NCBI GenBank assembly: GCA_012719655.1
Contig: JAAXZZ010000100.1
Span: 1-36,846 of the forward strand
Length of the DNA stretch: 36,846 bases
Reading direction: 5' to 3'
From: Gammaproteobacteria bacterium
GTDB taxonomy: Bacteria; Pseudomonadota; Gammaproteobacteria; Pseudomonadales; Pseudomonadaceae
A model generated the notes under the pieces. The model made no database searches and was not told the DNA's origin. It saw only the letters and a list, made by a program, of their open reading frames with translations. Shown here piece by piece: positions 6,289-34,486 of the stretch; positions within the stretch are counted from its first letter, which is position 1; every line of letters begins with the position of its first letter. Position numbers and translations under genes: made by a program.

Positions 6289-6810
6289 ATGTCAACGTCA
6301 ACAGTCAAAACCATTGAATTCTCCACTACCGAAACCGCTTTTGCTGCGATTTTATTAGCGCGCAGTGAAAAGGGGATTTGTACTATTTTGCTCGGTGACA
6401 GCCAAGCCGAGCTTGTCGAAGATTTACAACAACGCTTGCCCAAAGCAAAACTGGTCAAAAATGATCAGGCTCTGGCGGCATCGTTAAAGACAGTGACTGA
6501 GTTTTTAGACAAGCCTTTGACACCTTTAGATTTTCCTTTGGATATCCAAGGCAGCGATTTTCAGAAAAGTGTGTGGGCGGTATTACAGACGATTCCAGTG
6601 GGGCAAACACTCAGTTATAGCGATGTTGCCGAGCGTTTACATAAACCTAAAGCAGTCCGCGCTGTGGCCAATGCTTGCGCGGCTAATCCGCTGGCTTTAG
6701 TGATTCCATGCCATCGTATTTTACGTGCCGATGGCGGGATTTCTGGTTATCGCTGGGGCGTAGAACGTAAACGCGCATTACTGACGAAGGAGCAGCAGGC
6801 TTGTCAGTAG
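6289..6810 (+). CDS. ogt: methylated-DNA--[protein]-cysteine S-methyltransferase
   Basis: PCHRILRADGGISGYRWGVERKRALL active site; FQKSVWAVLQTIPVGQTLSYSDVAERL. Confidence 0.92.
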   Translation: MSTSTVKTIEFSTTETAFAAILLARSEKGICTILLGDSQAELVEDLQQRLPKAKLVKNDQALAASLKTVTEFLDKPLTPLDFPLDIQGSDFQKSVWAVLQTIPVGQTLSYSDVAERLHKPKAVRAVANACAANPLALVIPCHRILRADGGISGYRWGVERKRALLTKEQQACQ

Positions 6811-7028
6811 AAGGTTTTGTTAAAGCTACAGAAGCGCGCTATGCCATTGTTGCGGCCTTGAGCGCGCGAGCAGCTAGGACGCTATGCGCACGCCGTACCC
6901 TGCAGGTCAGTGATGTTGTTTAAGAATTGGGAGCGCGGGCAGCCTGCCCACATTGCAACTTACGCAGAGTTACCAACTTTTAGCATAACGAAGCAGTGAG
7001 AACGCTATGCGCATACCGTACCTTGTGG

Positions 7029-7052
7029 GTATCGCTATTCCCTCAGCGATAC
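7029..7052. repeat. perfect 8-bp stem hairpin inside the REP-like region
   Basis: gtatcgct-attccctc-agcgatac. Confidence 0.7.
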
Positions 7053-7060
7053 ATGGGAGC

Positions 7061-7077
7061 GCGGGCCGCTGGCCCGC
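7061..7077. repeat. perfect 7-bp GC-rich hairpin (REP-like)
   Basis: gcgggcc-gct-ggcccgc. Confidence 0.7.
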
Positions 7078-7166
7078 AACGCTTTGACGGTTCTTTTAAA
7101 GCAAATATTCCATTGTCTGTAGCTGCCTAAAACTGCAATAGTGCCAACAACGCCAATGCTCAACGA

Positions 7167-7265
7167 GTACTTCGGGGTGGGTGTGACAAGCGAGCCAAGG
7201 ATGGCTAGCGCCGCAGTTGAACCCTGGATGGGTTCATCGACGGATAAACACTGACCCCGAAGTAC
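7167..7265. repeat. 99-bp structured element with terminal inverted repeats
   Basis: Terminal arms gtacttcggggt (7167-7178) and accccgaagtac (7254-7265) are exact reverse complements; inner hairpins agcca-agga-tggct and tgaaccc-tggat-gggttca. Confidence 0.75.
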
Positions 7266-7319
7266 GACATGCACAGAATTGCTTGTAGGCTCTAACAAAA
7301 CAACCATTACAGTTTAGTT

Positions 7320-8291
7320 TTATTCTGGCCTTGGTGCATAGGAAAACACATCAGCGTGCATTTGCTCTGGCTGCATACCAGCGGCCACTAGCGCATCAAA
7401 AGTGCCGTAAACCATCGCTGGCGAACCACTCACAATCACGTGGTAATCACTTAGATGTTGAATATCCAGACACACCGCCTCATACAACATCCCCATCCGA
7501 CCACTCCAGCCAGTACCTTCACTGACAATCTGATGAAAATGCAGATTAGGCATTTGCTGCCAAACAGCTAAGTTCTTCAGCGAATAAAAATCCTCAGCCA
7601 ACCGTGCCCCCCAATAGACATGGATCGGCTGGTTGAACCCCATCGCACGGCAATGCTCAATTAAACTATGGATCTGCGCCATACCCGTGCCAGCAGCAAT
7701 CAGCAATAACGGACGTTGATCAGCAGCAGCCAAATGCACGTCACCAAAGGGCATTTTAATACGCGCAATACGCTCTTTTTGCAGTTGTTTGAGCAACTCA
7801 ACGGCTGGATTATCGCGAGCCAGAATATGCAATTCCAATTCGCGGCCTTGCTGTGGCGCAGACGCTATAGAGAAAGCACTGGATTCACCATTTTCACGCT
7901 CAATCAATAGATACTGACCGGCATGATAACGCACCACTTTTCCAGCCGGCAGACGCAAATGCACCGAAAAAACATCAGCACCTAAAGGCGTGACACTGAC
8001 TAACTGGCATGCCACTTTACATAAAGGCAACTCATTTGCGGCAAGCACGCCATCCCAATGCAATTCACAATCGCTTAAGGGTTCAGCAAGACAAGTAAAC
8101 AACTCACCTGACTCAAAAATATCGCTACCTTGACGAACTTTACCGCTGATTAAATTGGCGGCGCAAATATGGCAATTACCATTGCGACAGCTTTGTGGCG
8201 CATCAAAACCTAGGCGGCGCACCGCATCAATAATTTTTTCGCCCGGCAACAGTTCAATGACATGGCCTGACGGTTGTAACATGACTTTCAT
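7320..8291 (-). CDS. 2Fe-2S ferredoxin / ferredoxin-NAD(P)H reductase fusion (CDP-6-deoxy-delta-3,4-glucoseen reductase-like)
   Basis: CRNGNCHICAANLISGKV 2Fe-2S motif, then YHAGQYLLIERENGESSAFSIASAP flavin-binding and LLIAAGTGMAQIHSLIEH NAD-binding motifs. Start set at MKVMLQ. Confidence 0.88.
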   Translation of the reverse strand: MKVMLQPSGHVIELLPGEKIIDAVRRLGFDAPQSCRNGNCHICAANLISGKVRQGSDIFESGELFTCLAEPLSDCELHWDGVLAANELPLCKVACQLVSVTPLGADVFSVHLRLPAGKVVRYHAGQYLLIERENGESSAFSIASAPQQGRELELHILARDNPAVELLKQLQKERIARIKMPFGDVHLAAADQRPLLLIAAGTGMAQIHSLIEHCRAMGFNQPIHVYWGARLAEDFYSLKNLAVWQQMPNLHFHQIVSEGTGWSGRMGMLYEAVCLDIQHLSDYHVIVSGSPAMVYGTFDALVAAGMQPEQMHADVFSYAPRPE

Positions 8292-8340
8292 GCGTATTTT
8301 GTTCCCTGTGTGTGCACAACACAATCATCACTCAAGCGCA

Positions 8341-34322: not shown

Positions 34323-34461
34323 GAGCCTTTTGCTTGCTGTGTGATTGCCATCATCGCATTACAATCTTCAGCAAGGATTTACGATGGATTGCATTATAAC
34401 CATAAAGGAAAAGTGGTTAAGGCCAAGCTGGCCATTACACGGATGTCAGGAAGCAGTCTGC

Positions 34462-34486
34462 AAACCCCGCTTACGCGGGGTTTTTA
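34462..34486 (+). terminator. Rho-independent terminator, about 200 bp past the previous CDS
   Basis: aaaccccgc-ttac-gcggggttt-ttt, 9-bp stem, tetraloop, U-tract on the plus strand. Confidence 0.85.

Follow-up and report, generated by a model that had tools for sequence, protein, structure and literature searches.

The window, the whole 36,846-nucleotide stretch of DNA analysed here, carries a 99-bp element at 7167–7265 between two convergent genes, ogt (6289–6810, + strand) and a 2Fe-2S/NAD-binding oxidoreductase gene (7320–8324, − strand). The initial annotation had correctly placed the element between ogt and a ferredoxin-reductase-type gene, and its description of 99 bp delimited by a perfect 12-bp terminal inverted repeat (GTACTTCGGGGT and ACCCCGAAGTAC) is exact; the two GGA-loop hairpins that it drew are present at 7193–7206 and 7218–7236. 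The features are listed below.

7167–7265 (+): type-A repeat, folded core, with a 12-bp closing stem, a three-way junction and two GGA-loop hairpins (covariance model R1)
7193–7206 (+): hairpin 1, AGCCA-AGGA-TGGCT, loop AGGA closed by A-T, GGA at 7199–7201
7218–7236 (+): hairpin 2, TGAACCC-TGGAT-GGGTTCA, C[TGGAT]G pentaloop, GGA at 7226–7228
7133–7166 (+): left flank, CTGCAATAGTGCCAACAACGCCAATGCTCAACGA, conserved and unpaired (20 copies of the own genome aligned together with their flanks; column statistics)
7266–7275 (+): conserved right flank, GACATGCAC, family form GRCATGCRC, unpaired (same flank alignment; column statistics)
7012–7054 (−): B copy truncated to its 3' half (profile positions 73–115), in opposite orientation to the A copy and directly adjoining the REP at 7055 (nhmmer with the B profile, E 1.6e-6)
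6880–6906 (−): possible additional fragment from the 3' end of a B copy, at low confidence (sequence comparison only)

The 99-bp extent holds for the folded core, but not for the repeat unit, which is longer (~115–145 bp, roughly 7133–7275) given conserved flanks that end in TGCYAACAACGCCAATGNTCAACGA on the left and begin with GRCATGC on the right. The flanks are unpaired and conserved in both types of the repeat (TCAAYGA on the left, GRCATG on the right). The GGA of hairpin 2 lies downstream of that of hairpin 1 at a spacing of 24 nt. Relative to the family form of hairpin 1, GC-GA-GCCA[NGGA]TGGC-GA-GC with its tandem G.A mismatches, the window copy has lost one G and may be decaying because G.A positions are lost. 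Around this copy, neither a promoter-like nor a terminator-like site was found. Two REPs at 6929–6953 and 7055–7079, both short and of the GGGAGCGCGGGC..GCCCGC type, belong to another family, and the one at 7055–7079 directly adjoins the truncated B copy. One pair of perfect 12-bp inverted repeats spanning 60–140 bp occurs in the window, and ~0.5 would be expected in first-order Markov sequence, so the lone inverted repeat proves little; the significance of the element rests on its branched fold, the repeat family and the covariation within that family.

That family is large in its own genome. Model R1 matches the window copy at 7157–7271 (92 bits, E 1.9e-19) and gives 72 matches in the 2.7-Mb genome, where blastn finds about 21 near-full copies. 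Every one of the 12 genomes searched within the genus (Denitrificimonas-like) carries the repeat, named records being Denitrificimonas caeni and related Pseudomonadaceae metagenome-assembled genomes; blastn found no copies in 26 genomes drawn from other genera of the same family and order. Copies fall into two homologous types: A, the type of the window, with arms close to GTACTTCGGGGT, and B, with highly variable arms that differ completely among copies yet remain self-complementary. No known Rfam RNA matches the element, either at the gathering score or with permissive filters, and the exact core sequences were not found in the literature texts searched. One A copy (G000:C47, L019 134–290) is bordered on each side by sequence resembling the left flank, as though it had arisen by recombination between two copies.

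The fold is exceptionally stable and is maintained by compensatory change. For 7147–7285, the minimum free energy is −58.8 kcal/mol (z −5.31), and none of 200 shuffled sequences folds as well, which bears out the long closing stem and branched interior predicted at the outset; with DNA parameters the fold is equally strong (z −5.06). In an alignment of B copies (A2), which was not fitted to the model, 97.1% of pair cells are paired, 27 of 34 pairs show double-sided change and 178 cells are compensatory, against 50 in shuffles; in the outer 18-bp stem, 17 pairs have changes on both sides. The joint A and B alignment (A4), which was fitted to the model, has 97.9% of pair cells paired and 831 compensatory cells, against 249 when shuffled and 80–148 in slid controls. 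Non-canonical features are conserved too, with tandem G.A mismatches beside both hairpins and a T.T mismatch below hairpin 2; between these features, in the joint alignment, a pair switches among A-U, G-C and C-G. Wobble counts (G-U:A-C) are 203:23 in the joint alignment, 64:13 in B and 63:2 in the Pseudomonas set introduced below. As G-U is far commoner than A-C, one strand folds, and it is the strand with GGA in both hairpin loops; these statistics do not separate RNA from single-stranded DNA (ssDNA). The initial annotation had proposed a covariance-model copy search and a check for compensatory change; both were run, and copies and covariation are clear, the opposite of the outcome that it had named as refuting and in agreement with its reading of a dispersed palindromic repeat, or else of a structured RNA. 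The element is a real, widely distributed, strand-specific structured repeat.

Beyond the genus, R1 weakly matches four genomes of another genus in the family, which we take from their sequences to be Pseudomonas. This version is multicopy (14–40 matches per genome), and a second model built on it, R2, matches 60 of 343 genomes of the order, in 29 genera, and 24 of 274 genomes of a class sample, and recovers the A/B elements in return. Plasmid and phage collections held no copies apart from one Aeromonas caviae record (NZ_AP026896.1, L227 751–886), where a two-GGA-loop element has the same fold; this record, labelled a plasmid, is 4.9 Mb and chromosome-sized. An impression that GGAT-loop hairpins recur between pseudomonad genes, voiced in the initial annotation, proved right, with the same two-GGA-loop architecture found across Pseudomonas and beyond.

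The GGA of the two loops is nearly invariant. Loop 1 contains it in 47/48 type-A, 35/35 type-B and 33/33 Pseudomonas copies, and loop 2 in 44/48 type-A, 34/35 type-B (the last one only gap-shifted in the alignment) and 33/33 Pseudomonas copies, against a mean column identity of 82–89% in the same sets. Copy sets gathered by blastn only, which are free of ascertainment by a model containing GGA, give 20/20 (loop 1) and 17/20 (loop 2) for own-genome A copies and 33/33 for each loop of Pseudomonas-type copies. In distant lineages, the outer stems are unrelated to each other and the two NGGAN loops persist (ACATGGATGT, CCAGGGATGG, GACAGGAAGTC and GCAGGGATGC), a conservation that is partly ascertained because R2 already contains GGA.

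All 134 copies placed relative to genes are intergenic, and 24 of 48 regions with copies lie between convergent genes, against 6 of 30 in the comparison; these counts rest on genes called with a simple script. Where the neighbouring genes are in tandem, 20 copies are on the same strand and 22 on the opposite one, with no strand preference. Neighbouring copies form inverted A/B pairs in 95 of 108 cases, with tail-to-tail gaps of 49–58 bp in most of 40 pairs and head-to-head gaps of about 100–180 bp. The interval between ogt and the oxidoreductase gene is syntenic in all 12 genus genomes; four have between one and four complete elements there, and eight have none (gaps of 24–116 bp); one locus (L208) has an intact B at the place orthologous to the truncated B of the window. 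Empty alleles were met at the ogt site only and, at ~75–85% identity, are too diverged to fix insertion boundaries; no target-site duplication was identified in this comparison with diverged empty alleles.

Because the two loops stay NGGAN while the stems change, the family points to a protein with a recognition site of GGA in a loop, which is the kind of site that CsrA/RsmA binds. The loops match the Pseudomonas aeruginosa RsmA consensus CANGGAYG (PMC7705225), the Rsm consensus RUACARGGAUGU (PMC7937890) and the CAGGAAG/CAGGAUG loops of the RsmY model, with a weaker match in hairpin 2 of type A, where C rather than A precedes NGGA. The sequence marks of a CsrA/RsmA-binding RNA, GGA in hairpin loops, the consensus CANGGAYG/CAGGAUG and at least two such sites, are found. 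The genome carries two csrA/rsmA genes with the RNA-binding motif VHREEIYQRIQ. It also has an RsmY-like small RNA in the window (34373–34484, + strand; RF00195, 48 bits, under the gathering score of 57), which ends in a GC hairpin and a T-run and is present in all 12 genus genomes.

We propose, with a probability of roughly 50%, that the GGA strand of this REP/BIME-like, non-autonomous repeat forms a bivalent CsrA/RsmA site, a link that the initial annotation had not drawn. The window element is a type-A copy of a dispersed family found across Gammaproteobacteria, which would be non-autonomous, kept and spread as inverted A/B pairs and presumably mobilised by some enzyme. Its + strand folds when single-stranded, be it as a putative transcript or as short-lived ssDNA, and forms a long variable stem that leads through a junction to two hairpins. 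Both hairpins display an NGGAN loop, and the two loops together could hold a CsrA/RsmA dimer. Each transcribed copy might then act as a local decoy or mark the 3' end of the adjacent mRNA, and many copies jointly might add to an RsmY-type sponge. Binding at the DNA level is possible, since an Rsm protein, RsmQ, recognizes GGA/AnGGA at the apex of hairpins in ssDNA and slightly prefers ATGGA/AGGGA; RsmE was assayed on the same oligonucleotides (PMC9928087). In P. putida KT2440, RIP-seq recovered intergenic ISPpu8-associated RNAs among the targets common to RsmA, RsmE and RsmI, one of them termed a long palindromic region (PMC7937890). These regions resemble the repeat, by description, in being intergenic, palindromic, repeated and enriched in Rsm pull-downs; in the original study they were interpreted as flanks or insertion sites of ISPpu8 (PMC7937890), and the parallel is only suggestive of binding. 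An ISPpu8-type insertion sequence beside Pseudomonas copies was considered and rejected, as the recurrent flanking homology consists only of further repeats. The lack of strand preference in tandem contexts makes a fixed role in particular mRNAs unlikely and favours a selfish element or a diffuse decoy, and one partner of each A/B pair is always antisense, which also counts against the proposal. Unlike RsmY, RsmZ, CsrB and CsrC, with which it shares several GGA motifs in C-G-closed hairpin loops of the CAGGAUG and CANGGAYG types, the repeat is multicopy and dispersed, has no promoter or terminator of its own in view, and combines only two GGA loops, as putative binding sites, with a long closing stem.

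A possible, though doubtful, alternative is that the repeat is selfish DNA of the REP/REPIN kind and CsrA is uninvolved, the fold being an ssDNA structure recognized in trans by a transposase or other DNA enzyme that itself reads GGA. Much of the genomic behaviour fits: inverted heterodimers with constrained tail-to-tail spacing, as for REP dimers (PMC3733652), strictly intergenic placement with enrichment between convergent genes, absence of orientation bias, presence/absence alleles at ogt and a fold that is as strong under DNA parameters. The repeat indeed behaves like REP/BIME/REPIN elements of the GTAG and CGTC super-families, being dispersed, intergenic and palindromic, arranged in inverted head-to-head and tail-to-tail heterodimers and arrays, and biased towards convergent genes, but it fails two REP features, the tag and the RAYT. 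Where a REP is a single hairpin of 20–40 bp with unpaired GTAG or CGTC at its foot, the present element is ~115 nt long, has a three-way junction and two GGA-loop hairpins, and carries neither tag; its flanks are TCAAYGA and GRCATG, and the GTAC at its foot is paired. The linked RAYT/Y1 transposase suggested by the initial annotation did not materialize. Y1_Tnp searches show no link to A/B elements, on which grounds mobilisation by a RAYT was rejected: the Y1/RAYT gene of the own genome (L021 1426–2055) is crowded by GGGAGCGCGGGC REPs, a different family that coexists with the repeat; no A/B element was found beside any Y1 gene in the genus; and no Y1/HUH transposase was found in a complete, copy-rich genome (G004) or in five other genus genomes (G002 and four more). 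The coincidence of both hairpin loops with the RsmA consensus further opposes a reading without CsrA, and no transposase known to us recognizes GGA in loops.

It is improbable that the repeat is a structured 3'-end element, a bidirectional barrier to transcription or a stabiliser of mRNA tolerated between convergent genes, with GGA forming merely stable apical loops. Such a role would suit the very stable fold and the convergent-gene enrichment, for which the tail-repeat-tail bias described for P. fluorescens repeats (PMC2718517) offers a parallel; it gives no reason for a near-invariant GGA with a variable N on either side, a conservation beyond the needs of a stable loop, and the window copy shows no T-run or terminator-like pattern. 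An intrinsic terminator was rejected on the same lack of a T-run. The MITE-like label of the initial annotation is not supported: dispersal, presence/absence and terminal inverted repeats would be compatible with a classical MITE derived from an insertion sequence with the same termini and mobilised in trans by a DDE transposase, but fixed terminal inverted repeats shared among copies were not found. Instead the termini differ completely between copies and stay self-complementary, the reverse of a fixed transposase-bound end, and neither a target-site duplication nor an insertion sequence with such ends was seen in the loci read, which leaves this origin highly improbable. Integron attC sites, considered since copies lie in arrays, were rejected on inspection, with spacers of ~50–180 bp that lack genes and no conserved R'/R'' core sites.

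Extending the proposal of a bivalent CsrA/RsmA site, we tentatively suggest that an undescribed class of mobile repeat in gammaproteobacterial chromosomes may have captured the CsrA/RsmA recognition code, with dozens of dispersed two-GGA modules per genome binding this global regulator as RNA, or as ssDNA during mobilisation, and imposing a copy-number-dependent decoy load. If the loops bind CsrA/RsmA, genomes with tens of repeats would hold titratable regulator sites beyond RsmY/Z-type sponges, and repeat number, which is quick to change between relatives, would tune networks of secondary metabolism, biofilm formation and motility. Binding could also account for puzzling intergenic signals in Rsm pull-downs and would give a structured repeat a functional reason to persist across a whole class. 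Should binding fail, the repeats would still be a sharply defined structured family that Rfam lacks and for which no mobilising enzyme was found.

The Pseudomonas version may have been sighted before. The P. fluorescens repeat R178 is 101 bp long, multicopy and present in all three strains examined (Silby 2009, PMC2718517); it is likened to our element by description, on the basis of similar size, copy number and internal inverted repeats, and the passages describing it mention no GGA loop or CsrA link. In one genome (G019, L225 ~800–2000), a Pseudomonas-type element adjoins a dense array of several repeats with long spurious open reading frames.
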